From positions 1-64,000 of the IMG/VR virus record IMGVR_UViG_3300030419_002557: 64,000 nt of DNA; one strand, written 5' to 3'. This document shows positions 11,601 through 49,250 of this stretch, one piece after another. Source of the stretch: a virus. The number at the start of each line of letters is the position of its first letter. The stretch's first letter is position 1. The translations under genes and the position numbers were made by a program. Below the pieces are notes generated by a model. That model was not told the origin of the DNA and did no database searches. It saw only the letters and a program-made list of their open reading frames with translations.

Positions 11601-14600
11601 AAGTACCTTATTCACCCGACTGGTGTTCCAGAGTACAAAAGAGCTTTTGATCCAAAGCGAATTGATTCTAATAAAATCAAAGAGTTATTAGCCGCTGTAA
11701 AGGCAAACAAGAAGCTTACACCGAAACAAAGAAAAGAAAGAACCAGAAAGCTTGAAAGAGCACTGTTTGCACATGAGCACATTGAAAATGCTCAGCGCAT
11801 GTATGGCGCTGATCATCCAATCATTCAGCGGTTCGTCAAAGAGGCGAGAGTAACAGGCTCAACCGTCGATGTTATGTCTCCAGAATACAAAAAGGTTTTA
11901 GATGGACTTCACTCTAAATCCGTTGATAGAGACATCTTTGGTGATGTGGCGACATTGCAGCACAGGATTTGGGATGAATGGCGCGGATACCTTGATCCGC
12001 ATGTGATTGTTCACCCAGGTAGCGCTATGCTTCCGGCTGTAAGGCCAGCGGCCCTCAAGGCCGTGGTGAAAGCTTTGGAGGATTCTCTCCCAGAAATCCG
12101 AGACCCCCGTGTACAGGCAGAGCTTACAAGGCGGCACAGCCGCCTGACAAGCGGCCTGTTTGGTCGTGGATTTAGAGAGCTACACTCTTCGTTTAAAGAA
12201 GGAAGGTTTGGAGGAACCTCTCCGTTCGAAGACAGGCCGCTGCCTACTGAGCTTAGTCGCGGTGCTCTTTACATAGCTGATTCGTCGCCGCCATCGAGCA
12301 GCCTGGACGTGTTCCTTGAGGGCGGCTCTGACATGGCTGATTTTTTCAACCATGGTGACCTCTCTTCTCTGTTTAACCGTGGCAGCAATGCGCTCATGAT
12401 GTTGTTGGGAGAAGAGTTCCCAATGGTTATGGACATCTTTGTAGACAAGTTCGACAGCATAGTTGCTGATGACGGATCCCGTGTACTTACAGAGAGGGGT
12501 TTTGGCGAACTTAAAGAATCTTTCAGCACTTACTGGCACGATGGGCATGTTCGAGATCCTCGTCTTGATATTGCGTATGACAGTGTCAAAGACAGGCTTG
12601 CTGTGTTTTGGCGTCGATTGCGGCACAGCGCTGACCGGACAAACCCCGGCGTCAGAAGGTTTTTCGATGAGTGGCTTGGTGTTCTAAACGATGCAAAGAA
12701 AGAAGCGATGCTTGATGTTAAAAACTCTGCTGAGTTTAAAAACATCCCGAAGATACAGATCGAAGAGTTTAAACCAGGCCAAGCTTCTGAACTGCTTGAA
12801 ACAGAACAGGTAGCCAAAAGAGGGCGAGCAAGAGAAAAGGCTCGCATCGATATGGACGAGGGACGGATTCGTTATGCCTTGGGCCTTACCGATGAAGTGA
12901 CCGAGGTCGATGCTTTTAGCGCGATGGAAAAAGCCGTAGGCTACGTCGCAACTGAAATGTCGAGGCTTAAGCACACCAACCACTGGGTTTCTTTTTCAAC
13001 AAGAAGCGTTGTTCCGGCGCGTCTTCTGCCTAAATACTTGGAAGAAGCACAACTTAGAAACTACTCTGTGTTTGGCGACCCGCACGTTCTTAAGAAGCAG
13101 TTTGAGAGAATCCCGCTTGAGCGGGTAAAGCTTGATGAGTTTGGTGAGCCCGTGATGGACACACCGTATGGTGTAGTCGAACCACAGCCTGTAATGGAGG
13201 TTGTGACAGAGGTTCTTCCAGATGGAACGGAGCGAGTAGTAGAGATTGATGTCATCAATCTTAATGAGCTACAGCAAGATCGGTTGAAGCAGTTGCTTAT
13301 TGAACTGGCTGTTGACCCAAGAACAAAACAGTTAACCCAAGAGGTTTTGGGGGAATACCTTCTTCCAAATGCAAATCTCGATCAGATTCCTTTTAAGCAC
13401 TATGAGTTCATCACTCAGGAACTATTGAGAGATCACGTTGTTGGAATCGGGTCAGGCATGACCAAGGAAATCAAGAATGTCCCCCGATCTCTCGGGTTTG
13501 CCGCCGTTCAGGCTCTTATGGGGCCCAGGGGGCTTGGAATGTTTGACAATATCCAGTCCCTCCAAAAGAGCCTTTCTCAGAAGTTCAAAACACGAGCCCC
13601 TCTTGCACACATGGGCAAGAATAAAGACGGGAAAGTTCGAGACGGCCAAGTTGTAAGCCCCATTGTTCAGGAGCTTTTTCAGCGTAGAATGCGCCAGATT
13701 GATGACATTCCAAACTGGATCAAGCGAGTTCAGAGCGCGTTGGCGAACAGGCAGAACCCTGCTGGCGTTTGGGAGGTGATTGAAGGTCTTCAAAACGTGC
13801 TTGAGCAACCTATTCATCAGCACACATACCGAGTGTTAGACCGGCTTGAGCTTTTGTTTATGGGAGAAGCAAAGGGCATTAACCCTAATCAGGTCGGTGA
13901 TGCACTAGATGACATTGCCAGGGCGTTTGCTGACAACAGGTTGATGACCAAGTCTGAGCGTGCAGCAATCAATCTTCTTAGAGACTTTGAGCGCATCAAG
14001 ATTTTAGAGCCCGAACGAACAATGGTTAAGGGCGACAAGGTTTATATTAAAGATCCTGCTCAGAGGGAGGCAATAGCAGATGCCTATATGGTAATACAAG
14101 AGGGTATCGCCAGGCGTCTTGAGATTGCAGATCAACATGCAAGAATCATCATGGAGGGCATGGGTGGTTCTCCAGAACAGAAGGTAAAGCTTTTTAGGAC
14201 TGGAGATGGTCAGCTTTCCACAATCAACAGAGACAGAGCTATTCGCCTTTATGACAGCTTTTATAAAGGCGAGTGGGGAGCGCTTCTTGACCAACTGGCA
14301 AGAGAAGGGCTGTCAACAGGTACTGCCCTGAAGTATCCGGGCAAGTTCAACGTCCTTCACGCAATGCTTGAGACAGTGATTCGATTGAGGGCTCAAAGCA
14401 TTTTTATGGACTTGGTCAATGACATGACCGACATGGGTATGTCTGTTCGCATTGAGGACCTGGCTCCAAAAGACATCACCAACATGGCCGAAAAGCGAGC
14501 CTTTGCTCAGCGCGTAAAACTTTACCTCAATGAGGAGCTTAAGTTTGGTGGCCCGCTTCAAATAGTGGACGAAACTGGACGAGTTTATGATGCAACAGAA

Positions 14601-16919
14601 GCATTCGAGCGGGTCAGAACTGAGCCGCTAACTGGACAAAAGATCCAGGGGGCCGGGCCAGGCGCAGAAGATTTTTCAAGAGAAGCGAGGGCGAGAGCAA
14701 GCAAAATCGGTGCCTACAAGCCTATTCATGAAAGAATGGGCGACGTTATTCATAAAACAAAAGTTCACGATCTCGAAGCCTTTACGGTCGCCACACAGCT
14801 AATCGAGCAGTGGGGAATGAAGATTGGCGCTAACATTGAAAACTGGGAGTTGGTGAGGTTTGCGGACGGTTCCGAGGCCCTGGTTCCAAAGCTTCTTCTT
14901 GATGAAGTTCAAGACGCTATGGACAGGGTTGCTGGTCAGGCTTCTGCAAGACAGGGAGTCACCAGCCGCTATCGTTTGCAGCCGAAAGGCTTCTATGAAG
15001 GGTTCCTCCCAGAGGTCGGGCAGCCCCCACTGAAAACAAAAGCAAAGGTTTTTGTTGGCGATGCGATCAACTTGCTGAGCAACTCATTCAATGTCAGCTA
15101 TCGACTAATGAAAATGGGCCTTACGTCAGGGCTCTTCATAGTCAATCTCCCTTACTACATGGCAAACGCCTTTGGTGCTCAACTACAGACGTATCAAGCG
15201 CTTGGTTTGAAAGGGTATTTTTCCTCAATGAGTCGACCAATGCTGGCGTTAGAGATTTCCGCAGCTTTGTGGGGTGACGCACCAACTATGCGGTGGACAA
15301 AGGTAAAGCCTGTTGTAATGCCGGACGGTACAGTCTGGACAAAAGAGTCTTTGACAAGAGCCGCTCACGAACACGGTTTGTCCGGCTCATTCCTGTCAAA
15401 AGAAACAGCAAGGACCGTTGCCGAAGATTTGAAGAAGAAAGAGCCTACCTTCTGGAACAAAATGACTGCCGCGCCAAAGTTCTATCACGCGCAGCTAATC
15501 AACTTTGCGACGTTCCTCGACAACTATCATCGTGTTGCAATCTTCGTTGAGCAGATCGGAAAAGGCGCTTCGGCAAGAGAAGCAGCAGCCGTGTCAAGGA
15601 AAGCGCTGTTTGACTATTCAGACCTCACTGACTTTGAAAAGAAATACATGAGGCAGATCTTCATCTTCTATTCGTTCCAACGAAAGAACATTGATTTGTT
15701 CTGGGACACCTTGTTGACCAACCCCCACAGGGTAATGGGGCAGTTGCGATTTGCCCGTGGTTTAAACCAGACCTTTTTGGATGGTGATGAACGCCTAATT
15801 GAAAGCGACTGGAGTCTTGGCCGCGTTGGTGTGAAATATCAAGATTTTGCAGCCAGCAGATTTGTACAGAAAGCAAGGTACAATGCGCCTATTTTTCCTG
15901 TTCAAGAAGCCTTGCGCGGACAATTAGACTTTCTTAGTTTTCTCGGCAGTTTTCTTCCTGGCGAGGGACTCATGGAAGGCGAGAAAAGAATGAAGGCACG
16001 CTTGAAGTTTTTAGGAAGGCTGAACCCTTGGCTTCAAGCGCCCTTAGCATTAACTCTCAACAAGACATTCTTTGGCGCAAGACCTATGAGGCCAGAGAGA
16101 ATTCCGCTGTTTATGGTCCAGCATGACTTATTAACAACAGGTGGAATAGTGATGCGCTCAATCGGCGCTCAAGCCAAAGCATTGAAGCGATGGGAAGAGC
16201 AAGACTACCCAGGGCAAACACATGCATACTATGCCACAAACACCACCGCTTGGTATCTGTTGCAGAACCTGTGGCATGGGCCGCTGCCGGTAATGCCTAT
16301 GCGTGAGGACATTCCAGGCACAAGTAAGATTCGAAAGTTTGTTCCAGGTGGAGAAGCAGTTGGAGAAGCTCTCGACCATATGCCTCTTGGATATGTGCTT
16401 CGAGCGCGTCCGCTCAAGGGATTGAAAGAGGGAACATTAAGTTACACCACTGCTGGTCGCATGATGGATACGATTGAGCGCCTAAACAGGGCGGGCGGTG
16501 GTGTTCTACGTCCAGATATTGTCGATGCTCAACTTAGAGCAGACATGGCGCACTACAAAGGCCTGGTTGAGTCTGGAAGAAGAGAGCCTCTCTTTGGCAA
16601 CATTGGAGAAGAGGAACGCCTTACATCTCAGGAGCTAAACGCAGCAGGGTTCCGTGTTGATCCAGAAACTGGAAACGTGGCGTGGCGTGATGACGCGCAA
16701 GGCGTTCCCGTTCGTGGGGCAAGAGGCCGACCAGGCATTCAGGAAGGTTGGTTGTCAATCGTGTTTAGTCCCCAAAAAATCTACACCGAAGAATATGCCA
16801 TTCTTATGGAGCACTACCGCTATCGACAATTGCTTAAAGCTGCTTTGAAAAAGCAGTTTGCTGTAGACTATGACAAAGAAATCCTTGAAGGCCGATACAT
16901 ATCAGAAGGTAGTGACTAG
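2685..16919 (+). CDS. Giant polyvalent-type virion protein with two zincin motifs (4,744 aa)
   Basis: One uninterrupted frame of 14.2 kb, with ATG preceded by an AGGA-containing leader. Seen in the sequence: a first zinc protease motif HELGH at residues 1514-1518 with downstream candidate ligands E1570/E1574; a second, HELVH, at 1845-1849 followed by NEKEF (E1913); and near 2838-2870 a VPG..TK / LDIH pair resembling the helix-hairpin-helix-GPD core of endonuclease III. Toward the C terminus, around 15.1-15.8 kb, is a hydrophobic block followed by a motif of the form FDYSDLTDFEK then FYSFQRKN, of a kind I associate with large phage virion proteins. This architecture matches the polyvalent protein idea (many enzymatic modules on one injected polypeptide). 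Delivery into the host and catalytic activity are inferred. No RNA polymerase motifs, transglycosylase or tape-measure repeats were recognised. Confidence 0.85.
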   Translation: MATPSVPGAGRAGVRANEEEEQEGYPEGWAVPEPPPVSLEEAEKLKIRLQEAVLDWAQKTHPGLTEEERKEKAEEKWETLRVHDDLSSDAARAHAAYETEEDNADFELLRVLVPREAVFPLPGSWSPTASMHQRLEDRKLFSIANSLQKADGLSPEEAMVRAHQSPVSRHEGGGLDFAQRFESFERMINRPGAFGAVVDIAKESAVGEAIQSGVGYAWDFVTLDTGAAPAEDYYGGARGKEWWTKRSTPFNVQAVFKGHADADAFEDVLFKEYRGEERPWYETVEMRAHKGEAYQDEIDLFNKNVDRRNELMSGNAEFIDLFGQWVKQREAFLEEVGNLNYGLWDHLDFDNAYAARNVNWIGNYRQGTKRPERYSSTYSEDRAAWGEASTFPKDSQLYERVEAAVEMWKMVDQLDPNSAMYSSAKERLDRALGNIPNDMFPDSLLRTTHRNTYGESSFATRAGHVRNSTWGDVSMVANPLFELATLDLDFSGVKTSAQAVGHLGLQTASTLYHGWDNYLWDWTHLGLLNLMPEDIGLTAEALYGNSAIEDFKKFFDNEELVSDDLEERKAILYRMALGMSRAEMHLNKFVLDVPELSRFKDAFLSAQDFPVAPEVALNGATPPGGGEYLTHSVGEIMDAAKESAESEGMTLEEYVNSDTGWANISQKLNKLKLYKLPHAMSSGLINAMGGYEGFRKHVERYVGAREHYFGREDRQAGNFAMETLGNAMSDTYIDGGNIRVTENTAGSVMRIGSTLLFDPVAETAMDLLFDPFMELKDQLGGRAWHGRANDRGGIQDWFYGLENPEGAGFWGRLQDAALNGLRYDKTDSEYRNLIGAGIALDIWVPGEGWALTAMSRPLVGTARLGKLMEDIPGMRISSDTLRAAYLPEGVFGAGSLWEKIAPAEDIADYERAVDVAEESATARRDAEVDDRSRFQRARTAVFGDPEVNLAKKRLKRARAYRQGTMGWRSWTPFAKPRELKAEFGGMHDITKIAAEQHFNNNLTQGVHPLEGFGPKFRSNVYEVMRRAGVKGEEVDRVLRDSSQMRSARFLSEAAERLTNVDDYTMQIRESALYSRLRDELEAANHRTPLHYKNLRGVDAVDAWMAMVETIGVAFARTRGLEDGLKATEQFMQQRLAEIDSGRLIEPPSRAIAGDTRGFDSAKQGLMDGVPSDQIKIREVNLDNEAELLAMKNSSEYETVRAIGDKQALRSMSMSLLVTLLGRVEAGSNVGADILGEIAHRLSKEFADSPGTAQSKFDEFVELLSQAEEDLLSRLPNQADRVQNLFDNILNDISERVRLARETLDESSTAKATKVQADTGRAQIVQAIRKLVEGDLLEAEQGAVLEALVMSLPERVLRDIRLSEQIAGIARGNAARSLPLLSEGGPVDRLISSVEFYGFADEVGTLKAGENALFVGATVDEVLQAIRFKRDENQGFKSLGIRYVSKKKNPDTGKAYTARELAEKYVDAETWMRRQQGESFSPEKIEQLVNQFEKALHAYKKGSDRVGPRTYQFLHELGHAISMSFLSDSEIAILSKAFRDELDDFGLFRDTPYTREFSTMTDVQFTEWFAENFAEYVITHQLPKVLAGDAGSSGLLRIFSNIMERLSNYFSSWFRRAPRAKTDFHPALANVIDRLFDGKAAAMASRREIALRRASRYQMRLSDEGIFSTLSVQRSGLDGQYIPELDDVEVAEDLLRMDEGPQVDVVDAEKSNIPSDVGLGELSLDEANAAMRQAKTGSQLADFISENASDPVHQRIAERIKPHLNDTEVHVIEGPDDIPEAIYEMEKKGTLPKLVAYQIATLSAHESRLRSVTRGLNWSPEGDAFNDVFLRGNKAYSGTTAETALHELVHAATVRRLSDGNLSANKGTALQKATSDIFDLRNQVVKIAKQAQKDKTLDPAIEDILIRATANEKEFVAYGLTNKTFQDYLMTIKVEDKSMWNVFVEKIADLLGVAKKDQNALTDLVRMTDELLDAPLEELPSRPLTEWLTLMEEPVGAAARAADDVEITVAAVGMRPEFMEAQLLMNRANEARKSRDAATNAGTRRMYQRQLDTANRRLYLLLEPDLKKALTEGLDPDVVQITNLTEAGGFERSLGAFADYAPEGGFYVTLKGPRDIILGRVAEYSRAYNQDAMLVRERIKTVDIDKTKPLIEQISFDDKGVQRGATARIVIPRAFEGKLAQAIMQTIAKNETGATIRLDTLEDGRGVIELVHVPEWIPAQYASVETFRDIVEKVAGDIKEHTKKKKLGDVEVTFEQESVYAVSHSRGAPDAANNPGLYEYWIERSRNQLRKQGRDAAPLFELAEEGVGTGPVTRGPRLQPGGDRPAVNGSNSLLDIPGAARRIGPEIRRVLNERDAFDSGHLSEELAAEFNVQSEIAGGTPHDIVDLEVDSGLKQRISLSEITPNQASEIKSRLGTANPLEDVSFDVEFTVERVTETPEGKVVERSKVSVPVFPVLKATDFAGAKGQKVLIPGGMEGTFSFSDVQYLARRPIEMILEEAATKWWDDLPKNDDGVNIFGKREDLGNYDEIMAQYKEAYSSMLDRMYDKLHNSYGLEKHRPKNEEIFDGGRFKSKEAKFQWEQEIEIHMMDVASQYVFAYLSMQTNLLDNQAFAAVVRPRSFADLSDMVNRYRTAKRNKGSDLDRDEANHILGFSLTLSEGVLKNRFGKKTKLADVETDILPIIQIHDWTKPGGPLITVQSVDIAPLNADKIAGKTRKALARYVKSKEKVAKKEALLARTKDASKRKRIRAELRAAIKEMQAADVQHQALLNSVSTQDVVQLTGDIALSSPANTTRLLEMYEMMHEDFLRVQKGELKHGFFERYPGEDWDAFSDRVSSMVPGMATKISAFGIYWQNPIAASIGALDIHMIGMIGPELFKEQRWLNKAEGWYRDWQSIKSDAAKKHLKEVAETALIRDTGTEPTKTAISKKAKEMLSSELKERARVSFEDFLSTGKSNPAYTFWREQLRGEITAPEKYLIHPTGVPEYKRAFDPKRIDSNKIKELLAAVKANKKLTPKQRKERTRKLERALFAHEHIENAQRMYGADHPIIQRFVKEARVTGSTVDVMSPEYKKVLDGLHSKSVDRDIFGDVATLQHRIWDEWRGYLDPHVIVHPGSAMLPAVRPAALKAVVKALEDSLPEIRDPRVQAELTRRHSRLTSGLFGRGFRELHSSFKEGRFGGTSPFEDRPLPTELSRGALYIADSSPPSSSLDVFLEGGSDMADFFNHGDLSSLFNRGSNALMMLLGEEFPMVMDIFVDKFDSIVADDGSRVLTERGFGELKESFSTYWHDGHVRDPRLDIAYDSVKDRLAVFWRRLRHSADRTNPGVRRFFDEWLGVLNDAKKEAMLDVKNSAEFKNIPKIQIEEFKPGQASELLETEQVAKRGRAREKARIDMDEGRIRYALGLTDEVTEVDAFSAMEKAVGYVATEMSRLKHTNHWVSFSTRSVVPARLLPKYLEEAQLRNYSVFGDPHVLKKQFERIPLERVKLDEFGEPVMDTPYGVVEPQPVMEVVTEVLPDGTERVVEIDVINLNELQQDRLKQLLIELAVDPRTKQLTQEVLGEYLLPNANLDQIPFKHYEFITQELLRDHVVGIGSGMTKEIKNVPRSLGFAAVQALMGPRGLGMFDNIQSLQKSLSQKFKTRAPLAHMGKNKDGKVRDGQVVSPIVQELFQRRMRQIDDIPNWIKRVQSALANRQNPAGVWEVIEGLQNVLEQPIHQHTYRVLDRLELLFMGEAKGINPNQVGDALDDIARAFADNRLMTKSERAAINLLRDFERIKILEPERTMVKGDKVYIKDPAQREAIADAYMVIQEGIARRLEIADQHARIIMEGMGGSPEQKVKLFRTGDGQLSTINRDRAIRLYDSFYKGEWGALLDQLAREGLSTGTALKYPGKFNVLHAMLETVIRLRAQSIFMDLVNDMTDMGMSVRIEDLAPKDITNMAEKRAFAQRVKLYLNEELKFGGPLQIVDETGRVYDATEAFERVRTEPLTGQKIQGAGPGAEDFSREARARASKIGAYKPIHERMGDVIHKTKVHDLEAFTVATQLIEQWGMKIGANIENWELVRFADGSEALVPKLLLDEVQDAMDRVAGQASARQGVTSRYRLQPKGFYEGFLPEVGQPPLKTKAKVFVGDAINLLSNSFNVSYRLMKMGLTSGLFIVNLPYYMANAFGAQLQTYQALGLKGYFSSMSRPMLALEISAALWGDAPTMRWTKVKPVVMPDGTVWTKESLTRAAHEHGLSGSFLSKETARTVAEDLKKKEPTFWNKMTAAPKFYHAQLINFATFLDNYHRVAIFVEQIGKGASAREAAAVSRKALFDYSDLTDFEKKYMRQIFIFYSFQRKNIDLFWDTLLTNPHRVMGQLRFARGLNQTFLDGDERLIESDWSLGRVGVKYQDFAASRFVQKARYNAPIFPVQEALRGQLDFLSFLGSFLPGEGLMEGEKRMKARLKFLGRLNPWLQAPLALTLNKTFFGARPMRPERIPLFMVQHDLLTTGGIVMRSIGAQAKALKRWEEQDYPGQTHAYYATNTTAWYLLQNLWHGPLPVMPMREDIPGTSKIRKFVPGGEAVGEALDHMPLGYVLRARPLKGLKEGTLSYTTAGRMMDTIERLNRAGGGVLRPDIVDAQLRADMAHYKGLVESGRREPLFGNIGEEERLTSQELNAAGFRVDPETGNVAWRDDAQGVPVRGARGRPGIQEGWLSIVFSPQKIYTEEYAILMEHYRYRQLLKAALKKQFAVDYDKEILEGRYISEGSD

Positions 16920-25445: not shown

Positions 25446-25553
25446 CTTCTTTGCTGGAATGGGCTCGCCTGAGAAATAACCGCATTTAGGACAGCGCTCG
25501 TCTCCGACGTAGCGGTGGTCACACTCGAAGCAAATGCGCTTGATGGGCTTCAT
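25428..25553 (-). CDS. Mini zinc-ribbon protein, 41 aa
   Basis: The ATG overlaps the recT stop as ATGA, so it is translationally coupled. The product is a single zinc ribbon: CFEC at residues 8-11 and CPKC at 21-24, with a basic tail. Its last codons lie inside the terminator stem. Such small ribbons often bind nucleic acid or a partner enzyme; coupling to RecT suggests a role in the recombination module, which is inference. Confidence 0.65.
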   Translation of the reverse strand: MKPIKRICFECDHRYVGDERCPKCGYFSGEPIPAKKNPRKL

Positions 25554-26338
25554 GCCAGAGCCGCACCAAGGTCGCTCATTCCATTTACCTCCTTGGGTTC
25601 ATCCTCGCCAACGATTGGCGTGATGTCGATAGGAGGCATCTTTGCGTGAGGATCATCTCCATCCGCAGAGACAGCCGTTGCAAGCTCAAACGACATGGGC
25701 ACGGTGCCGCCGTTGAAGAGGGCACGGATAGCGCTCTTACGAGCCATGCGAGAGTAGTCGTCTACCCAGGGGCCACTACGACCAGCCTTGGAACGACGAC
25801 GAACCTTGTCGATGTCCACCTTCCAAAGCACCTCAAAGTACGACGATCCGTCCTTAAGAACAGCAACAGCGTAGGCTGCTACAATCTTGTCGTCTGAGCG
25901 GTCTACATCTCCACGGACACTGTGCTCAATGTTGGGGTGAAGTCCAGCGCTAACATCGAACTTCTCGCCTTCATAGACAACACGGGCATCGAGGCGGGCC
26001 ACCTGGCCACTGCGTCGAGCAAGCTCCAAGTATCCTTTGTAGCCAATGATTGGCGTACACTTGTTGCCATAAGGAATGAAGTAGATGTGGCCCAGTGTTC
26101 CGCCGGGCTCCAAGCCAAGCTGCGCCGACAGCATTACGGATTCTGCCACGGAGATGCTGGTGCATTCCATAAGCTTTGGATTGCGGCTGGCCTCCACAAT
26201 CAACACCTTGCACATGCGCTCTGGGGTTAGATGGTTGGGCAAGATGGATGCTACTTGGTCCTTCATCTTGTTGTTGATGAGGTCCTTGAACTTCTCCATC
26301 TTGGTGGGTGGCTTGTTTGCAATTTCGTTCTTGGCCAT
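25550..26338 (-). CDS. recT: RecT-family single-strand annealing protein, 262 aa
   Basis: Typical RecT features in order: an N-terminal helical region (MEKFKDLINNKMKDQVASILP), the P-x-x-L-T-P-E-R-M block, SVAESVMLSAQLGLEPGG, then GHIYFIPYGNKCTPIIGYKGYLELARRSG. RecT proteins anneal complementary strands and pair single strands with duplex DNA, working with a 5'-3' exonuclease, here encoded immediately upstream. TAATG overlap with the exonuclease stop; the GAGGCAAC leader lies inside the exonuclease's last codons. Confidence 0.93.
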   Translation of the reverse strand: MAKNEIANKPPTKMEKFKDLINNKMKDQVASILPNHLTPERMCKVLIVEASRNPKLMECTSISVAESVMLSAQLGLEPGGTLGHIYFIPYGNKCTPIIGYKGYLELARRSGQVARLDARVVYEGEKFDVSAGLHPNIEHSVRGDVDRSDDKIVAAYAVAVLKDGSSYFEVLWKVDIDKVRRRSKAGRSGPWVDDYSRMARKSAIRALFNGGTVPMSFELATAVSADGDDPHAKMPPIDITPIVGEDEPKEVNGMSDLGAALA

Positions 26339-27288
26339 TAGTTGCCTCTCTTGTGTTGAATGTTCATTCGAAAGATTCGAGATGGTTCGCTGGTCTTAGT
26401 AAAATCTTTTGCGATTTCGGGATGTTCTTTACGCAGCGCCTTGGAATCGAGAGATGACCTGCCTTTGTTCATCTTCCAAGAGACGGTGCCAAAGACGCCG
26501 TTGAGACCGGCATTGTCAGCGATGCGCTCTTTGATTTGATTTTTAAGCAGGGCTTCCCTCTCCTTCATTGATTTGATTTCCGTCTGGAGATCATGAAGGT
26601 CAAAGATAAGCTCTTCTTCTACCGGGTCAGCAGTCCTGTACTCTTCACTTGGATCGCCAAACTTGTCCTGTAAAAATTTGTCAGCAGCAGGCGAGCCATC
26701 GATTGGTGGTGGTTCTCCACCTACAACGTGCTTTTTCCACCAGTCGCCGCACTTCTTGACCAGCTTCTTCTCAGTCTTCTTATTTCGAAGCAACGTGTAT
26801 CGACGAAACTCATCGTTGACTAGGAACAGAACAGCAAAGTCCCAGCGGTCAATGTTTGTACAGGCCATGTACCATGCCGCCTGTGTGGCATAGTAGACAG
26901 GCACGCCAGAACCAAGGTCTTCTCCCCAACCGTCGACGCTACGCGCCGTTTTGATTTCCAACCCGAACCGGCTCTCCCCGGAACTGACGTACCTGTCAGG
27001 TGATGCAAGCATGAATGACTTGGGGCCAACGATTGGCATCTCGTTGCCATCTAAAACCTCAAAGCCTGTCTCTTCCTGATACCATGTCGCGATTGCGGAC
27101 TCTAGTAGGCGGCCTCTCCGCATCGCGTTTGTTTCTGGAATCTCCTCAGCGAGCCCTCGCTTTGCTGCCCACACGTCCATGGGCGAGGACCACTTTGATA
27201 ATCCAAGGACTGCGGCAATATCAGACCCGCCGAGCCCTTTCATTCTAGCTTCGTACCAACCATCAGGTTTAGGCAAAACACCCTCCAT
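26338..27288 (-). CDS. YqaJ-type viral recombinase exonuclease, 316 aa
   Basis: The start is placed at the ATG before the conserved WYEARMKGLGGSDIAAVLG; a TTG at 27315 would add nine residues, and neither has a strong ribosome site. Seen: GRLLESAIATWY (catalytic Glu), MLASPDRYV (Asp) and GLEIKTA (E-x-K), the metal-binding set of PD-(D/E)XK lambda-exonuclease-like enzymes. It resects 5' strands to give 3' tails for RecT. The C-terminal third is a Lys/Glu-rich helical extension. Confidence 0.9.
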   Translation of the reverse strand: MEGVLPKPDGWYEARMKGLGGSDIAAVLGLSKWSSPMDVWAAKRGLAEEIPETNAMRRGRLLESAIATWYQEETGFEVLDGNEMPIVGPKSFMLASPDRYVSSGESRFGLEIKTARSVDGWGEDLGSGVPVYYATQAAWYMACTNIDRWDFAVLFLVNDEFRRYTLLRNKKTEKKLVKKCGDWWKKHVVGGEPPPIDGSPAADKFLQDKFGDPSEEYRTADPVEEELIFDLHDLQTEIKSMKEREALLKNQIKERIADNAGLNGVFGTVSWKMNKGRSSLDSKALRKEHPEIAKDFTKTSEPSRIFRMNIQHKRGN

Positions 27289-27304
27289 GCGATATGATGT
27301 TTCT

Positions 27305-27505
27305 ATGAAAGACAAAATTAGTCATCAAGGAATCGCAAGAGCGGCCAAGTACGCACAAAAAGCCATGGACTCTGGAGACGTTCCAGAGCGTGCCTTGGCG
27401 CGAGGCAAGAGCCTCGAACGTCAAGGGATGCTTAGAGATGATGGGTCGGTCCAAAAGATTCATCCTGACGAGCGACGATCAAGCCGTAGGCGTCTTACGG
27501 ACTAG
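27305..27505 (+). CDS. Possible small basic protein, 66 aa, opposite to operon
   Basis: Fits almost exactly in the gap between two minus-strand genes and has a charged, helix-prone composition (MKDKISHQGIARAAKYAQKA, then ERALARGKSLERQGML). No ribosome site precedes the ATG, but TATGAT at 27293-27298 lies just upstream, so a leaderless transcript is possible. It overlaps the 3' end of the opposing gene by 27 bases. It may simply be spacer. Confidence 0.4.
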   Translation: MKDKISHQGIARAAKYAQKAMDSGDVPERALARGKSLERQGMLRDDGSVQKIHPDERRSSRRRLTD

Positions 27506-28120
27506 CTTACGCTTTCCCGATCTTGGGTTGTTCTTCTTAGCAGTAGGCTCTATCGCTGCTTTAATTTCGATGTCCTCATCTTCCGTTTTGTTAATGGAAC
27601 CTTCAAGCTTGGCGATGGCTTCGTTTGCGCTCAACTGTCCAGCAGCAAGCATCTTGAGAAGCGCAAGCGTTGCTTCGTTGTTCGTGGTGTCAGCCTTTAC
27701 ACTCACGTTCACAGCGGGCGCACCGTTGTGATACTGCACGTCTTCTTCGCCTCGCTCGTCTGTCCAGCGAACGCCTAACAAAAGAATAGCTTCGCCGTTG
27801 TCTTCACGAATCTCTACCTCAAACTCGCAGGGCTGCCAGTCTCCGTTGGGCTGGATGTTGAGCAGGGTCTTTCGTTGGCCGTCCAGTGCAGCGGAGATCA
27901 TGTTGTGCCAGGTGGCCTCGTCAACAGCGCTAAGAAGATTCACAACTCGCCATCGAGCAATCATCTCTTTAGACCGATGCGCCTTGTCTTCCTCGACAAC
28001 AACTTTGTTTACCATTCGGTTTGCAATGGTGATCAGCACCGAGGGGTCGGTGACCTTCTTGGTGTTTCGCTTGTCATCCATCAAGGACTCTGGCTTTTCT
28101 GGAAGGATCGACACGGGCAT
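27479..28120 (-). CDS. Hypothetical recombination-operon protein, about 213 aa
   Basis: First gene of the exonuclease-RecT operon. The ATG at 28120 directly abuts AGGAG, too close for normal initiation. The GTG two codons later (28114) has ideal six-base spacing and may be the real start. The product has a helical N-terminal half, a central QPCEFEVEIREDNGEAILLLGVRW beta region, and a Lys/Arg/Pro-rich C-terminal tail. No family recognised. A nuclease-inhibitor or recombination accessory role is a guess from context. Confidence 0.8.
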   Translation of the reverse strand: MPVSILPEKPESLMDDKRNTKKVTDPSVLITIANRMVNKVVVEEDKAHRSKEMIARWRVVNLLSAVDEATWHNMISAALDGQRKTLLNIQPNGDWQPCEFEVEIREDNGEAILLLGVRWTDERGEEDVQYHNGAPAVNVSVKADTTNNEATLALLKMLAAGQLSANEAIAKLEGSINKTEDEDIEIKAAIEPTAKKNNPRSGKRKLVRKTPTA

Positions 28121-28246
28121 CTCCTGTTTTTAATCTAAGTTGTTGCCGGTCCAAAAACTGACCGGCCCAAAGAACTTGGCGCATTTTGTGTCCCCTGTCA
28201 AGGGTGGGTTCGCATTTTGCGCCCAATCTGGTATAAGGTCTATGAA
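28121..28246. promoter_or_regulatory. Divergent regulatory region (candidate switch)
   Basis: Lies between divergent genes. Seen: an inverted repeat CCGGTC-8-GACCGG at 28147-28166; the 9-mer CGCATTTTG repeated at 28181 and 28212; and a plus-strand promoter TTCGCA-17-TATAAG at 28210-28238, whose -35 overlaps the second 9-mer. The regulator gene immediately downstream may control itself here. Operator assignment is inference. Confidence 0.55.
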
Positions 28247-28504
28247 ATGAACACTTCATACAGAATCTTCGGTCAAAATCTTCACTACCTTATTCGCGCA
28301 AAAGGCGTGGGAATGAGGGCTTTTGCACGCGAGGCAGGCATAGACTACTCGCTTCTTAAGCGGTACATGTCTGGTCAGGTTGCTCCTCGTAAGCAGCGAC
28401 TTGAACAGCTATCTGTTCTACTTGGCGTCAGTCCGGGTTCTTTGATGTTTGATGACCTTGTGCCTGAAATAGAGGAGAGCACCAATGTTGTTTGTGGGGA
28501 TTGA
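28247..28504 (+). CDS. HTH transcriptional regulator (Cro/CI type), 85 aa
   Basis: Start chosen at the ATG opening MNTSYRIFGQ rather than ten codons earlier, since the earlier start would fall inside the promoter. Residues about 10-60 form an XRE-like helix-turn-helix: LHYLIRAKGVGMRAFAREAG, then YSLLKRYMSGQVAPRKQRLE and LSVLLGVSPGSL. Likely a repressor controlling the divergent recombination operon and its own operon. Overlaps the next gene by 20 bases. Confidence 0.8.
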   Translation: MNTSYRIFGQNLHYLIRAKGVGMRAFAREAGIDYSLLKRYMSGQVAPRKQRLEQLSVLLGVSPGSLMFDDLVPEIEESTNVVCGD

Positions 28505-28997
28505 TCCAGGGAAGGACGGAGCACTTGTCGCCATTGATGAAGAAGGCGTTGTGCGTGATGTAGTGCTGACCAAGTCTAAGTTCACTGTGCCTATTGGTAA
28601 GGGGTCTAAGCGAGAGTACGACGCAACCGCCATGGGTGACTATCTGACCAAGCTACACGCCACTCAAGGGGTGAAGCTCGTCGCAATTGAAAAGCAGCAG
28701 GCTCGCCCTGGACAGGGGAGGACATCGATGTTTTCAATCGGGGTAGGCTATGGGCTTTGGCTTGGCGTAGTTGGAACTCTTGGTATTCCTTTCTCAGTCG
28801 TTCACCCCACTACTTGGCAAAGAGATGTTCTTCGAGATGTCCCTGGTGTTGGGAAGGGCCGGGCGATTTTGCTTTGCAAGCAACGGCTGCCGGACTTAGA
28901 GCTTGCACCTGGCCGGAGGCAAAAATCTCACGACGGGATTGCTGATGCAGCCTGTCTTGCAATGTGGGGGTTCAAGTCGATGATTGGAAAGATGTAA
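28485..28997 (+). CDS. RuvC-like Holliday junction resolvase, 170 aa
   Basis: RNase H-fold nuclease with the expected acidic set: D7 in VGIDPGKDGAL, E69 in VAIEKQQA, and D150/D154 in HDGIADAACLA. Length fits phage RuvC-type resolvases. It would cut branched DNA formed during recombination and before packaging. GAGGAG precedes the ATG inside the upstream HTH gene. A conserved VPGVGKG stretch at about 125 resembles a helix-hairpin-helix loop. Confidence 0.85.
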   Translation: MLFVGIDPGKDGALVAIDEEGVVRDVVLTKSKFTVPIGKGSKREYDATAMGDYLTKLHATQGVKLVAIEKQQARPGQGRTSMFSIGVGYGLWLGVVGTLGIPFSVVHPTTWQRDVLRDVPGVGKGRAILLCKQRLPDLELAPGRRQKSHDGIADAACLAMWGFKSMIGKM

Positions 28998-29042: not shown

Positions 29043-29069
29043 TAGAGACAGAGAAGGACCGATGGAAAG

Positions 29070-30011
29070 ATGAGCGACGAGGCAGGACCGACAGGCGTAT
29101 TGATTGATGTAGATGAGTGGAAAGCTGTTCGAGACGCCATGGAGGGACCTTGGCCTACACGCTTAGCTGAAATCGACTTAGCGTTTATTGAGCTTGAAAC
29201 AGGGGCCGTACCGCCACGTCGAAAGCTTATGAAGAGGTGGGGCATTACCGAAAGAAAAGCCCGCACCATCGTGCAGCGACATAAGGCAAAGCGTCCCAAG
29301 CTCACTACTGAACCGTCCCAAAAACACACCGTTGAGGACACCCAAGTTATTGGAATCACTACTGTGGACGAGTCAACACCGTCCCAAGTTAATGTGGTTA
29401 GCGTCCCAAAACCAAAAGACATATTTGCTGATAAGATACAGCTTGTGTTCAAAGCATGGGAGGTGGCTCAGTTTCAGAGAACGCGCCGCCGCAACAAGCT
29501 TACTGCTGGAAGAAAGAAGATAATCAAGTCAGCGCTGACAGCCGGGCACACTGTGGAAGATCTTGTGCTTGTGGTGCGTATGGCCTTTGAGTACCCAGAG
29601 GGAGACTACCTCGTCGATAGCTGGAGAAGTGGTGGGTACATGGACATTGCCAACCTGCTCAACCGGGACAAGGTCGATAGGAACGTGACCCTGGCTATGG
29701 AGCGATGGGATGGAAATGAATGGGTGTTCAGTGGAAAGAAGCAGCACAGCTTTGAACCCAAGTATCACAAGCTTTGGGAAAACATTGTGTTCTTGGTGGG
29801 TGCGTACCCTGACAAGCCAGACACTCTTCATCGAATCCAAAGCGTGAATGAAGCGATGCACAAAGCGCTCGATGTGGTTGGCGGCTGGCGATACCTTGGC
29901 TCGCTCCGCCCTGGCAAGCAGCAAGAGCAAATCAAAAACGACTTTCTTTCTGAGGTTCGTTCTGAACTTCAACAACAACGACCGACGCTACAAAGAGGCA
30001 ACCACAAATGA
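29070..30011 (+). CDS. Replication initiator protein (lambda O-like organisation), 313 aa
   Basis: Residues about 48-72 form a winged-helix type HTH (PRRKLMKRWGITERKARTIV). A variable Thr/Pro-rich linker follows, then a C-terminal helical domain beginning DKIQLVFKAWEVAQF with KLTAGRKKIIKSALTAGHT, a layout common in phage replication proteins. The linker-coding DNA carries four copies of CGTCCCAA at 22-bp phasing, just as lambda O contains its own origin. The dnaB gene follows with an ATGA overlap. Origin binding and helicase recruitment are inferred. Confidence 0.7.
   Translation: MSDEAGPTGVLIDVDEWKAVRDAMEGPWPTRLAEIDLAFIELETGAVPPRRKLMKRWGITERKARTIVQRHKAKRPKLTTEPSQKHTVEDTQVIGITTVDESTPSQVNVVSVPKPKDIFADKIQLVFKAWEVAQFQRTRRRNKLTAGRKKIIKSALTAGHTVEDLVLVVRMAFEYPEGDYLVDSWRSGGYMDIANLLNRDKVDRNVTLAMERWDGNEWVFSGKKQHSFEPKYHKLWENIVFLVGAYPDKPDTLHRIQSVNEAMHKALDVVGGWRYLGSLRPGKQQEQIKNDFLSEVRSELQQQRPTLQRGNHK
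29291..29410. repeat. Iteron array inside initiator gene (candidate origin)
   Basis: Four copies of (G/C)CGTCCCAA(A/G) begin at 29291, 29313, 29379 and 29401, with spacings of 22, 66 and 22 bp, that is multiples of two helical turns. A degenerate copy (ACACCCAAG) lies at 29338. An A-rich stretch follows to about 29440. The same motif in the opposite orientation recurs at 41053-41179. Confidence 0.7.
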
Positions 30012-31402
30012 AGCCATTCCCTAAGAGTATACCAAGCGAGAGGTTTGTCCTTGGCGCTCTACTATTAGACAACACCTTGATTCATGAGGTCCAAGGCGAG
30101 ATTGAGCCTGAAGATTTCTATAGGTCATCACATAAAGAGATTTACCTTCTGATTCGATCTTGGATTCACAAGGGCAAAAACATTGATGTGATGCTGCTGG
30201 TCGACAACTTGATGACGTTAGACCAAAGCCAAAAGTATGGAGATATTCTTGAGGTGATGTCGCTACCGGAAGCGGTTGGCTCAACCATGCTGACGGAGCA
30301 TCACGCAAAAAACGTGCGTGAGAAAGCGATTCGTCGGCGCATGATCCTTGCTTCAGACAAGCTGAAGCACAACGCAACAGATGGCCAACTGGACATCGAC
30401 GAGCTTATTGAGCAAGGCCAAAGGGACTTGCTTGAGATCGCTGGCAGACAGCGCGGGGACGATTGGTTCGTGGGGCCACAGCTAGTAGAGCGTGCCCAGA
30501 CAAGGTGGGAGAAGCTTGCAGAACTCAAGGCAAACAACTGTGTGACGGCTTTGTCCACCGGCTTGGTGGCGCTCGACAATGTTCTGAGTGGGCTGCACCC
30601 AGGCCTGACGCTGCTAGCTGCACGTCCATCCATGGGGAAAACAGCCATGGCTCTGAACCTGACAGTAGCAGCATTGGAAAAGCAGGTTCCTGTAGCTTTC
30701 TTTTCTCTTGAGATGAGTGCTGACCAACTAACAGATCGTATGGCTTCGTCCTTGGCGAAGGTCAATGCCTGGAACATCAAGACTGGTGACCTCGGATCAA
30801 GAGACTGGGACAAACTGGAAGCGGGTGCGTTGGATTTTTTGCACGACTCACCACTATTTGTTTCCGACAAAGCTGGTGTAAGCATTTCAAAGATTACTGC
30901 TCAGGCACGCAGGCTGAAGTCTAAGGAGCCCAAGCTCGGCTTGATCGTCATTGATTACCTGCAACTCATTCGCCAACCCAAAGCGGAAAGCATGGAGCAG
31001 GGTGTGTCCCAGGTGTCGAGCGCTTTGAAGGTGTTGTCTCGGGACTTGAACGTGCCTGTTCTCTGCTTGGCTCAACTCAACCGTGGTTGCGAGCAGCGCA
31101 CCAACAAGCGCCCAATGTTGTCTGACCTTCGGGGCTCGGGCTCGTTGGAGCAGGACGCTGACGTGGTCATGTTCCTCTACAGGCACCACTACTACGATGA
31201 GCGAGCCGACCCATCAGATGCGGAGATCCTTGTGGCCAAGCACCGCAGTGGGCCGACAGGTACAGTCCATGCAGAATGGAACGCAACCAATCAAAAGTTT
31301 GAGGACAAGACTCGCCATGCTCCAAGGGCGGTTGAGTTCGCACAGGTTAAGAGAATCAGGCGCGACCTCGACGACGAGGATAGCGAGCCAACCTGGCTGT
31401 GA
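30008..31402 (+). CDS. dnaB: Replicative DNA helicase, DnaB family, 464 aa
   Basis: Full-length DnaB layout: an N-terminal helical domain starting PSERFVLGALLLDN, then the RecA-like core with Walker A around GKT (K211) in ARPSMGKTAMALN, FFSLEMSADQLTDRM, Walker B around D316 in LIVIDYLQLI, and VLCLAQLNRGCEQR with RGSGSLEQDADVV. It unwinds DNA as a hexamer at the fork. No separate loader gene is seen, so the initiator may load it. The stop codon directly abuts a tRNA gene. Confidence 0.95.
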   Translation: MKPFPKSIPSERFVLGALLLDNTLIHEVQGEIEPEDFYRSSHKEIYLLIRSWIHKGKNIDVMLLVDNLMTLDQSQKYGDILEVMSLPEAVGSTMLTEHHAKNVREKAIRRRMILASDKLKHNATDGQLDIDELIEQGQRDLLEIAGRQRGDDWFVGPQLVERAQTRWEKLAELKANNCVTALSTGLVALDNVLSGLHPGLTLLAARPSMGKTAMALNLTVAALEKQVPVAFFSLEMSADQLTDRMASSLAKVNAWNIKTGDLGSRDWDKLEAGALDFLHDSPLFVSDKAGVSISKITAQARRLKSKEPKLGLIVIDYLQLIRQPKAESMEQGVSQVSSALKVLSRDLNVPVLCLAQLNRGCEQRTNKRPMLSDLRGSGSLEQDADVVMFLYRHHYYDERADPSDAEILVAKHRSGPTGTVHAEWNATNQKFEDKTRHAPRAVEFAQVKRIRRDLDDEDSEPTWL

Positions 31403-31478
31403 TGGGGCGTGGTCCAATTGGAAGGACGCCCGACTGTTACTCGGGAAGGTGGTGGTTCGAGTCCACCCGCCCCAGCCA
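31403..31478 (+). tRNA. tRNA-Asn (anticodon GUU), CCA encoded
   Basis: Full cloverleaf of 76 bases: acceptor TGGGGCG/CGCCCCA, D stem GTCC/GGAC, anticodon stem CCCGA/TCGGG with loop CTGTTAC (anticodon GTT), T stem GGTGG/CCACC with loop TTCGAGT, discriminator G, and genomic CCA. It begins on the base after the helicase stop codon, so it must be cut from that transcript or have an internal promoter. Confidence 0.95.
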
Positions 31479-40202: not shown

Positions 40203-40642
40203 CACTCACCTCCTTCTTCGGCTTTGTTGGGCCGGTCAAGATTGTTGTAGTGGACATAGAGTTGCGTGCGAACATCGCGCTTCCCTGTCGGATCGAACAC
40301 CGTCCACTTCTCGTAGTGCGAAGACCAGCGGGTGATGTCCATCGCTTGGCGCTCCTCGTCACTCAGGGCATCCCACTCCTCTACGGTGTATCCCTCATCA
40401 GTCCCCTGTGGAGTTTCAACCCACGTCGTAAGACCTGTGAACTCAAAGCCACAAGCCTTGACCTCTTCGTGCAGTTCTTCAAGCACCTCCGTTTGGTGCC
40501 TCCCGCCCCATGGGAGTCCGCCGTCTCGCACAAGCAGATGGATGGTGACGCTCCCGCAGGGGTGAATCATGAGTGAAAGCACTTTAGTGCCAGGGTTTGT
40601 CAAACTCGCAATGACTTGCGTTGGTTGCTTCTCAGCTTCCAT
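40202..40642 (-). CDS. Hypothetical protein, 146 aa
   Basis: Start set by GAGGCAACA-ATG at 40642; an earlier ATG would add a poly-Asn stretch encoded by a GTT repeat. Contains VLSLMIHPCGSVTIHLLV and EVLEELHEEVKACGFEF. First gene of its transcription unit beside the iteron region. Not recognised. Confidence 0.65.
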   Translation of the reverse strand: MEAEKQPTQVIASLTNPGTKVLSLMIHPCGSVTIHLLVRDGGLPWGGRHQTEVLEELHEEVKACGFEFTGLTTWVETPQGTDEGYTVEEWDALSDEERQAMDITRWSSHYEKWTVFDPTGKRDVRTQLYVHYNNLDRPNKAEEGGE

Positions 40643-40720
40643 TGTTGCCTCAGTGTTGTTGTTGTTGTTGTCGGTCAAGTTCTTGTCCTACGATATACAA
40701 AACGAAACGAATCGGGTTTA

Positions 40721-40760
40721 GCGGACAAAGAAAGTTTATTTTATTTTCGGCAGGCTCTCA
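40721..40760. repeat. Shared T-rich intergenic element, copy 1
   Basis: GCGGACAAAG, then a T/A-rich tract, then GCAGGCTC. Related copies lie at 43717-43756 and 46164-46194. Here it overlaps the end of the small membrane gene by three bases. Confidence 0.4.
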
Positions 40761-40880
40761 GTCCCTCATCGAGATGATGAAGCAGAACACTGCCACCAAG
40801 AGGAAAGCACCTGCCAGGGTGTCCAAGATGACATGCCCTTGCTGGGCTGGCTGGTCAATCATCTGGTATTGGATCTTCAT
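40758..40880 (-). CDS. Small membrane protein, 40 aa
   Basis: Hydrophilic start (MKIQYQMIDQPAQQGHV) and one C-terminal membrane segment (LDTLAGAFLLVAVFCFIISM). No clear ribosome site, so confidence is limited. It lies in the gap beside the AT-rich tract and iterons. Confidence 0.4.
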   Translation of the reverse strand: MKIQYQMIDQPAQQGHVILDTLAGAFLLVAVFCFIISMRD

Positions 40881-40894
40881 AGATATACCGTGGG

Positions 40895-41179
40895 ATCTTA
40901 GAGTATATATATATAAATTAATTATCTAACTAATAGCTTTTGAGAGTAGAGGGGAGTGTGAGGGGAGAAGAGAACTTTGATTCCCGCTCTCGCTCTCCGT
41001 TTGGACGGTGACCAAACAGGAACCTAATGATTCCAGACGGTTGGCCACCGCCCTTGGGACGCCTGTCCTCCCCTTGGGACGGTTGCGCTTCACACTTGGG
41101 ACGCTTTGTTTCATGCACCGCAGTCATTTCAATGGTTTACGATTGTCTTTTGGGACACTATCGTCTCGCGACTGGGACG
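40895..41179. other. Candidate replication origin: AT-rich tract plus second iteron array
   Basis: An AT-rich tract at about 40899-40938 is followed by copies of the initiator iteron (here TTGGGACG) at 41053, 41073, 41095, 41149 and 41171, with spacings 20, 22, 54 and 22; a degenerate copy (TTTGGACGG) lies near 40999. Copies 3 and 5 share the 13-mer GGGACGCTTTGTT. No credible gene is seen in the array itself. Direct AT tract plus iterons is the layout of iteron origins; function is inferred. Confidence 0.55.
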
Positions 41180-41241
41180 CTTTGTTACCACGCAGCCAAT
41201 GAGCAAGTGCTCGTGCAACGATCTTCTCAAGGGGGGAAGGC

Positions 41242-41346
41242 TTACTCACGTTCTTGTTCCTCGATTGACTTGATGAATCCATGTGCCTCACTAACAGCCC
41301 AAGCAAACACAAGTATCCACAAGACTTGAAGTGTGAGCCAGATCAT
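41242..41346 (-). CDS. Small membrane protein, 34 aa
   Basis: ATGA overlap with the upstream gene, whose GGAGGTGAGGA end serves as ribosome site. Sequence begins MIWLTLQVLWILVFAWAVS, one membrane-spanning helix, then a charged tail ending EEQERE. Possibly a host-envelope effector. Confidence 0.55.
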   Translation of the reverse strand: MIWLTLQVLWILVFAWAVSEAHGFIKSIEEQERE

Positions 41347-41636
41347 TCCTCACCTCCTTTGAATGCTGGTTGGTATGAGTGAATGACAATCCAAGTCGTG
41401 TCGTGGTTGGTCCATCCTTTCAGGAAGGCCTTGCCCCACAGCATGAGGGCGGCCTGGTCTGAGTCCAGGTTGTGGACCACTTCAAACCTGGCCACGGGGC
41501 TTGGCTCTCCATCGACAGGCCACGTCGTGTAGCATCGTTGCAGTTGTTCGCACCCGACTTGGTCGGGCAGGTTCTCCAACTCTGCGATGTAAAGGTGGGA
41601 CACCTTGTCGACTGGTGCTTTGTATTGACTATTCAT
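41343..41636 (-). CDS. Hypothetical protein, 97 aa
   Basis: Leader GAGGCAACTA. Contains LYIAELENLPDQVGCEQLQR and LMLWGKAFLKGWTNHDTTW, aromatic-rich and globular. Coupled to the small membrane gene downstream. Function unknown. Confidence 0.65.
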   Translation of the reverse strand: MNSQYKAPVDKVSHLYIAELENLPDQVGCEQLQRCYTTWPVDGEPSPVARFEVVHNLDSDQAALMLWGKAFLKGWTNHDTTWIVIHSYQPAFKGGEE

Positions 41637-41696
41637 TAGTTGCCTCGGTGCCCATTGCTGGGCGTGTGTTGGGTTCTAAGGTGGGGGTCAGGGCTT

Positions 41697-41716
41697 GGGT
41701 AGGGGAATGCCTACCC
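41697..41716. other. Intergenic hairpin
   Basis: GGGTAGG-6-CCTACCC, a seven-base-pair stem between two minus-strand genes. No T run on either side, so an RNA processing or attenuation role is more likely than termination. Confidence 0.35.
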
Positions 41717-43352: not shown

Positions 43353-43676
43353 TTAGCCAGCGTTGAAGCTGGCAATGATCACAGGGTTTTCTGGGGTGAA
43401 GTCAGCGACTCCGATCTTGGTCACCTCAAGTTGCTCCGGGTCGTCAACCCAGCCGTGGTACATGCCAGATCGTGGCTCAGTGGTCCCGTCTTGGAAGACC
43501 ATCACCCATCCTGCCTTCTGGGTGCGATCCCACTTGCGGTCATCCCACTCGTGGTAGGGGCCGGGGTAGGTGTATCGAGCCTCGGTTTCATCGGTCGCAA
43601 TGACGACGAATGAATCCCATTCATCGTAGCCACCGTTGTCAAGCCTCTTTACGAGGTAGATGTTCTTGCTGTTCAT
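43353..43676 (-). CDS. Hypothetical protein, 107 aa
   Basis: Leader GAGGCAACA. Starts MNSKNIYLVKRLDNGGYDEW with a Tyr/Trp-rich beta core. The opening strand and DSFVVIATDETEAR resemble small alpha/beta phage proteins. Function unknown. Confidence 0.65.
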   Translation of the reverse strand: MNSKNIYLVKRLDNGGYDEWDSFVVIATDETEARYTYPGPYHEWDDRKWDRTQKAGWVMVFQDGTTEPRSGMYHGWVDDPEQLEVTKIGVADFTPENPVIIASFNAG

Positions 43677-48427: not shown

Positions 48428-48610
48428 TTAGTCACCCTTCTTTGCACCAAACAACGATGGAGTTGCATCAAAGTCTTCTTTGAGCTTCCAGTGTTTGGGA
48501 GCATTGTGAAAGGCACAAACGGCTTTCCATTCTCCTTGTCGATTGACAACGACATCAGAGAGCCGCTTGCAGCCTTCTATTTCACATTCGCCTGGCTTGT
48601 CATCAGCCAT
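48428..48610 (-). CDS. Small zinc-finger protein, 60 aa
   Basis: Start at the ATG overlapping the methyltransferase stop. CEIEGCKRL and CAFHN provide a C-x4-C...C-x2-H site like that of other small phage fingers. Translationally linked to the methyltransferase. Function unknown. Confidence 0.6.
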   Translation of the reverse strand: MADDKPGECEIEGCKRLSDVVVNRQGEWKAVCAFHNAPKHWKLKEDFDATPSLFGAKKGD

Positions 48611-49250
48611 CGTACTGATCGAAATGCCACGAGAAAAACTTCTTACTGTTTTTCCCATCACCTTGTCTGAAGACCAAGATTGCCGAACCCTTCGGTGCGC
48701 TTGATGCTTTCGAGCCATCTTCACGCAAGAACGGGACACGGCCTTTCATCAGACGAATCTGGTCAGCTTGCCAAGCCCAGTTGTGCCACCAAATGGTATC
48801 GGTGCAAGCCATGACGAGCATGACAACCGTTTTCCCTTTGAGTGACTCTTCCCAACCTTTCCTGACCCAATCACCAACGCTTCGACCGTAAGGAGGATTG
48901 ACGAAGATGCTTTGACCTTCCCAGTCTTCTAGAGCGAGAGCATCGGTACGAGAACCATCTTCATGGTCAGGACCGTAATAGCTGTCGAGAAGAGCAGTAT
49001 GTTTTAGGGCAGCAGCATCGAGTTCGAATCCAAACTCACGGTTGAGTCGATCAAACAGAGGCTTTGGCGTTCGCCAAGTGTCATTCTCTGATGAGTGGAT
49101 TGCTTTCCAAGCTGGAGACTTCTCCGCTTTCTTTGGAGCGGCTTTAGCCTTTGGCTTAGCAGGAGCCTTTGCTTTGGCCTTTGCGGGTGCTTTGGCTTTG
49201 GCTTTTGGCTTAGCGGCTGGTTTCTTGGCTGGTTTCTTAGCAGTTGGCAT
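48603..49250 (-). CDS. Dam-type DNA N6-adenine methyltransferase with H1-like tail, 215 aa
   Basis: Residues 1-45 are almost purely Lys/Ala/Pro (AKAKAPAKAKAKAPAKPKAK), resembling eukaryotic-type histone H1 tails and bacterial H1-like proteins. The catalytic domain follows: WRTPKPLFDRLNREFGFELD and the NPPYG motif at 118-122 of phage adenine methyltransferases. It probably methylates adenine in a short target, perhaps to block restriction. The tail likely adds DNA affinity. Confidence 0.88.
   Translation of the reverse strand: MPTAKKPAKKPAAKPKAKAKAPAKAKAKAPAKPKAKAAPKKAEKSPAWKAIHSSENDTWRTPKPLFDRLNREFGFELDAAALKHTALLDSYYGPDHEDGSRTDALALEDWEGQSIFVNPPYGRSVGDWVRKGWEESLKGKTVVMLVMACTDTIWWHNWAWQADQIRLMKGRVPFLREDGSKASSAPKGSAILVFRQGDGKNSKKFFSWHFDQYDG

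Follow-up and report, generated by a model that had tools for sequence, protein, structure and literature searches.

In the O initiator of phage lambda, the iterons lie in the linker between the N-terminal DNA-binding domain and the C-terminal domain. The iterons and an AT-rich tract are located together in the O gene (PMC7466680). The Bacillus phage SPP1 has one initiator, G38P, and two arrays, oriL and oriR, one of them within the initiator gene; the second, some 12-13 kb away on the circular genome, falls in a gap that is mostly non-coding (PMC6316719, PMC3485210). Theta replication begins at oriL, and a fork stalled by oriR-bound G38P has been proposed to trigger recombination-dependent replication (PMC6316719, PMC3485210).

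An uncultured virus deposited in IMG/VR can be set beside these two systems. The window, i.e., the whole stretch of DNA analysed here, comprises 64 kb of the 72,076-base record IMGVR_UViG_3300030419_002557. Two separate clusters lie in it, almost certainly of one and the same initiator-binding site, one inside the initiator gene and the other 12 kb away. This two-array plan is best read, by analogy, as resembling oriR/oriL of SPP1, the phage from which such a plan is known in detail through laboratory work. By arrangement, both features of the latter are present, one initiator with an array in its own gene and a distant second array of the same repeat. Additionally, direct repeats are found beside a candidate AT-rich unwinding element, a DnaB-type helicase is encoded in the initiator operon, and an exonuclease, an annealing protein and a Holliday junction resolvase are encoded as well. 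Unlike in SPP1, the AT-rich element does not accompany both arrays but is strong only at the distal one (z 5.5 vs. 2.4; stability z scores were taken against the window's mean), the two arrays occupy opposite strands, a small ORF contains two of the distal sites, and no distinct loader for the helicase was identified. With lambda the window phage shares the iterons inside the initiator gene, in an interdomain linker, and the adjoining helicase-related gene. It differs from lambda in having a second array with an AT tract 11.8 kb away, in the weakness of the AT tract at the in-gene iterons, and in that the neighbouring gene encodes a helicase, DnaB, rather than a P-type loader.

The Predicted Initiator Gene and Its Iterons

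The genes and sites concerned are as follows:

29070-30011, plus strand: putative replication initiator gene (P0001, 313 aa), identified as such from its position upstream of DnaB, the iterons within it and weak PHROG matches
30008-31402, plus strand: DnaB-type replicative helicase gene (Pfam DnaB_C, 1.3e-90)
29292-29299, plus strand: in-gene iteron 1, CGTCCCAA, frame 0, RPK
29314-29321, plus strand: in-gene iteron 2, CGTCCCAA, frame 1, PSQ
29380-29387, plus strand: in-gene iteron 3, CGTCCCAA, frame 1, PSQ
29402-29409, plus strand: in-gene iteron 4, CGTCCCAA, frame 2, VPK

The 3' end of the initiator gene overlaps the start of the helicase gene. Relatives of the initiator in IMG/VR range from 92 to 39% identity, and weak matches to PHROG 'replication initiation protein' families were obtained for nine of 12 of them (best E 0.0018). 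A Pfam search of the initiator returned no family, the HTH_36 profile (PF13730) did not match it even at E 5, and tblastn against sequenced phage isolate records gave no match and no named family. The N-terminus is a four-helix domain with a helix-turn-helix-like pair (residues 14-73), followed by an unstructured linker (residues 77-113), which encodes the iterons, and a C-terminal helical domain. PDB fold searches with the model of the whole initiator and with that of the N-terminal domain yielded no significant match; in the latter (pLDDT 85) only the helix-turn-helix-like arrangement is visible.

The in-gene iterons, at nucleotides 222, 244, 310 and 332 of the gene, occupy the same positions in closer relatives, and such iterons are found in all relatives. 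Since the octamers of the initiator gene are translated in three frames (RPK, PSQ and VPK), selection acts on the DNA and not on the peptide.

Immediately upstream of the initiator gene, RecT, a RecE-like exonuclease and a RuvC-like Holliday junction resolvase are encoded (25550-28997), which together constitute a recombination-dependent replication set. Downstream, a tRNA-Asn gene (gtt, 31403-31478) starts 1 base past the helicase stop codon. Elsewhere in the window a single ORF of 4744 codons (2685-16919) takes up about a fifth of the genome, and a Dam-type adenine methyltransferase is encoded on the minus strand at 48603-49250 (Pfam Dam, E 4.6e-28). A scan of GTDB genomes found no relative.

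The half-site GTCCCAA of the window phage is also repeated in the helix-turn-helix protein linker of two HTH_36-type initiator-like genes from other phages, L053 and L055, but their repeats are palindromic (GTCCCAAGTTGGGAC). The GTCCCAAGTTGGGAC-like linker palindromes belong to L053 1062-1832 (minus strand) and L055 3-833 (plus strand). Pfam HTH_36 matches L053 and, below the cut-off, L055, but not the window initiator, and no homology to the initiator was detectable in L053 by tblastn. The common half-site reflects either convergence or a shared recognition domain. A further in-gene pattern match, in L054, turned out to be an AT-rich tandem repeat and was dropped.

The Distal Array

The second cluster, array 2, occupies 41000-41179 and consists of three exact and three one-mismatch sites on the strand opposite to that of the in-gene iterons:

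41172-41179, minus strand: array 2 iteron 1, CGTCCCAG, offset 0
41150-41157, minus strand: array 2 iteron 2, TGTCCCAA, offset 22
41096-41103, minus strand: array 2 iteron 3, CGTCCCAA, offset 76
41074-41081, minus strand: array 2 iteron 4, CGTCCCAA, offset 98
41054-41061, minus strand: array 2 iteron 5, CGTCCCAA, offset 118
41000-41007, minus strand: array 2 iteron 6, CGTCCAAA, offset 172, a site being present here in five of five aligned genomes
41124-41249, minus strand: conserved 41-codon ORF (VSKPSPLEKIVARALAHWLR...) containing array 2 iterons 1 and 2, with counterparts in G001, G002, G004 and G006

The initial annotation listed five copies at 20-22 bp phasing in a gap without a clear gene. 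Three of the five are exact, reading TTGGGACG (CGTCCCAA on the minus strand) at 41054, 41074 and 41096, and the other two carry one mismatch each (TTGGGACA at 41150 and CTGGGACG at 41172). The phasing is borne out for three of the four steps, the order being 20, 22, 54 and 22 bp, and the two copies said to share an identical 13-mer do so, GGGACGCTTTGTT following both 41096 and 41172. Beyond these five, the one-mismatch site CGTCCAAA at 41000 lies 54 bp further on, at a conserved position. The gap is only partly free of genes: iterons 1 and 2 are inside the conserved 41-codon ORF, and another conserved ORF of 40 codons lies past the AT tract. The counterparts of the 41-codon ORF share the consensus K/NPSxLExIVARxLxHWL. 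As two array 2 sites are inside this ORF, coding could explain some of their conservation.

Eight copies of the octamer CGTCCCAA are found in the window, where chance would give 2.0, and not one of 100 shuffles had as many: four copies are in the initiator gene, three in array 2 and one elsewhere, at 49277. The octamer is absent from the remaining 8 kb of the record. A scan of the whole genome had been recommended in the initial annotation, a motif common throughout the genome being taken to speak against the proposal; the octamer proved confined to the two arrays save for the copy at 49277. Clusters of at least five sites (at most one mismatch, one strand, 130 bp) did not arise in any of 200 first-order Markov sequences, where the largest had three, and besides the two arrays the window holds no other cluster of at least three sites. 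Among the papers listed in a literature search for the octamer, none dealt with phage replication.

The AT-Rich Tract and Flanking DNA

Beyond iteron 6 the following features were distinguished:

40939-40981, minus strand: conserved stretch rich in pyrimidines (TTCTCTTCTCCCCTCACACTCCCCTCTACTCTC on the motif strand), located between the iterons and the AT tract
40895-40938, strand not assigned: AT-rich tract, the window's least stable DNA and a candidate DNA-unwinding element
40758-40880, minus strand: conserved ORF of 40 codons that includes a hydrophobic segment (MKIQYQMI...SMRD), past the AT tract, with counterparts in G001 and G006

The strong AT tract reported beside the array (40895-40934) is indeed the least stable 30-, 40- and 50-mer in the window. 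Direct, helically phased repeats (neighbours 20-22 or 54 bp apart) thus stand beside a low-stability tract, as in origins of the iteron type. The least stable 40-mer beside array 2 has a z of 5.5 in the window phage (G000), 5.6 in G001, 4.4 in G002, 5.3 in G006 and 3.2 in G007, compared with 1.5-2.4 at distances of up to about 250 bp from the in-gene arrays (2.4 in G000). Counterparts of the tract adjoin array 2 in G001, G002, G004 and G006, and a weaker one in G007.

The composition of the pyrimidine-rich stretch was dropped as a signal, since an equal strand skew is found elsewhere in the window, and only its conservation was retained. The ORF with the hydrophobic segment, of 40-42 codons, reads MxKIQYQMI...SMRD across G001 and G006. 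A 46-bp element (40721-40766, GAGAGCCTGCCGAAAATAAAATAAACTTT on the minus strand), situated at and past its end, shows 93% identity in G004. A counterpart of P0003, the distal flanking protein, was found only in G001. No Rfam family was found at array 2 or the AT tract. GC skew does not switch at either array and follows gene direction, thus giving no sign of an origin.

Conservation and Co-Variation of the Two Arrays

The comparison sample consisted of five relatives from IMG/VR, representing four clades: G001, G002, G004, G006 and G007. Three more, G005, G008 and L014, were left out because their records end before the expected place of array 2. Each of the five relatives with records extending into the region has array 2, and their initiators are 88 to 39% identical to that of the window phage. 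The offsets 0/22/76/98/118/172 are exactly the same in G000, G001 and G006, though the spacers diverge; in G002 and G004 they are 0/22/76/98/107/162, i.e., shorter by about one helical turn, and the spacing shifts between clades are of about 11 bp. Between the array 2 sequences of the window phage and G006 the CGTCC core is retained at 29 of 30 positions, compared with 65 of 170 positions elsewhere. A DNA pattern derived from three array 2 sites matched, in the whole viral collection, only G001, G002 and G004.

In G006, whose initiator is 52% identical, three of the four in-gene positions carry CGTCCAG and the remaining one carries CGTCCCGA. Its array 2 likewise comprises CGTCCAG plus one CGTCCCGA, in a homologous gene neighbourhood and with unchanged offsets. 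G006 has exactly four pairs of CGTCCAG, of which the initiator gene and array 2 contain two each, and four other genomes have none; pairs of GTCCCA are present in those four genomes only within the two arrays, and there are none in G006. In G007 (initiator 39% identical) it is the layout that has changed, both arrays having the offsets 0/11/22/78/89/100, that is, two triplets with 11-bp steps placed 78 bp apart. Because motif (G006) and layout (G007) change in both arrays together, these genomes provide strong natural, indirect evidence for one protein acting on both. The initial suggestion that both arrays serve one initiator is strongly supported by the conservation of the distal array and its spacing and by this co-variation. 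Judged from these sequences, it is very probable that the same protein binds both arrays. At residues 51-52, where the predicted helix-turn-helix has its first helix, the G006 initiator has SQ in place of the RK or RR of all others aligned, and one may guess that these residues set the site specificity of the initiator.

The arrays of the window phage are 11.8 kb apart and opposed, whereas those of G006 are 6.9 kb apart and in the same orientation, the initiator-helicase block (G006:C1:10462-12812 vs. window 29049-31402) being inverted relative to the neighbouring operon. The distal array of G007 adjoins a homologue of the window gene 43353-43676, about 2.5 kb from the location in the window, and the two G007 arrays are separated by 55 kb of the linear record, or by 18 kb if the genome is circular. 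The distance between the arrays and their orientation thus appear free to vary; the presence of both arrays does not.

Possible Roles of the Two Arrays

The locus had been proposed to hold two origins, or an origin plus a titration or looping site. The strong AT-rich candidate unwinding element, found at the distal array only, favours that array as an origin, while a rigid loop is not favoured, as distance and relative orientation differ among relatives. The distal array probably initiates replication. The N-terminal helix-turn-helix of the initiator would bind the CGTCCCAA sites, mostly on one helix face; the initiator would load on the six distal iterons (41000-41179), the adjacent AT tract would then melt, and the DnaB helicase from the neighbouring gene would be brought in. 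The in-gene array would be a second initiator-binding region, whose role could be that of a secondary origin, of a site for autoregulation or titration, or of a roadblock; in the last case it might direct the transition from theta to recombination-dependent replication with the phage RecE, RecT and resolvase, along the lines suggested for SPP1. Tentatively, then, an uncharacterised initiator family may be pictured with two co-evolving arrays, the distal one an origin with its unwinding element and the in-gene one, which lacks that element, a site of control through autoregulation, titration or a fork barrier, a picture for which doubt slightly prevails.

It is unlikely, though worth weighing, that the in-gene array is the sole origin, as in lambda, and that array 2 is a non-initiating titration, handcuffing or fork-barrier site. 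The origin of lambda-type phages is inside the initiator gene (PMC7466680), the SPP1 model separates a theta start at oriL from an oriR at which the bound initiator stalls the fork (PMC3485210), and the in-gene iterons are present in all relatives. However, the AT tract of the unwinding type is at array 2, that at the in-gene arrays being weak in all compared genomes, and a pure titration site would need neither a conserved AT tract nor conserved sequence between the iterons and the tract.

Array 2 could also be an operator. Bound by the initiator, or by a second regulator sharing its specificity, it would bring about repression or activation of leftward early genes through a promoter situated in the AT tract. 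The surrounding genes do run leftward, and the AT tract between the small ORFs could house a promoter, but no sigma-70-type promoter was found at 40300-41700 (1.0 expected in shuffles), although those of phages may be of another kind. Six sites in helical phase, spread over 180 bp beside the weakest duplex of the window, exceed what an operator needs, and as the G007 array adjoins a different gene of the same cluster, array 2 is not linked to one promoter, which leaves this role quite improbable. It is hardly credible that another protein, sharing the octamer by chance, uses array 2 as a centromere-like or packaging (pac) site, even if repeat clusters are also typical of phage and plasmid partition sites and a terminase gene lies 9 kb away, for the motif and layout of array 2 change together with the sites inside the initiator gene, and no partition protein was seen among the scanned proteins, a subset of the ORFs.

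Implications

If the tentative picture of a distal origin and an in-gene control site is true, the initiator gene itself would be a control element for a distant origin. A family of uncultured phages, with an initiator that has no match among sequenced isolates, keeps the two-array plan, and motif and spacing drift jointly in both arrays. The change from CCCAA to CCAG, together with R51S/K52Q in the helix-turn-helix predicted for the initiator, would amount to a natural mutagenesis experiment on initiator specificity. Why two arrays are kept is a question directly testable on small DNA fragments.
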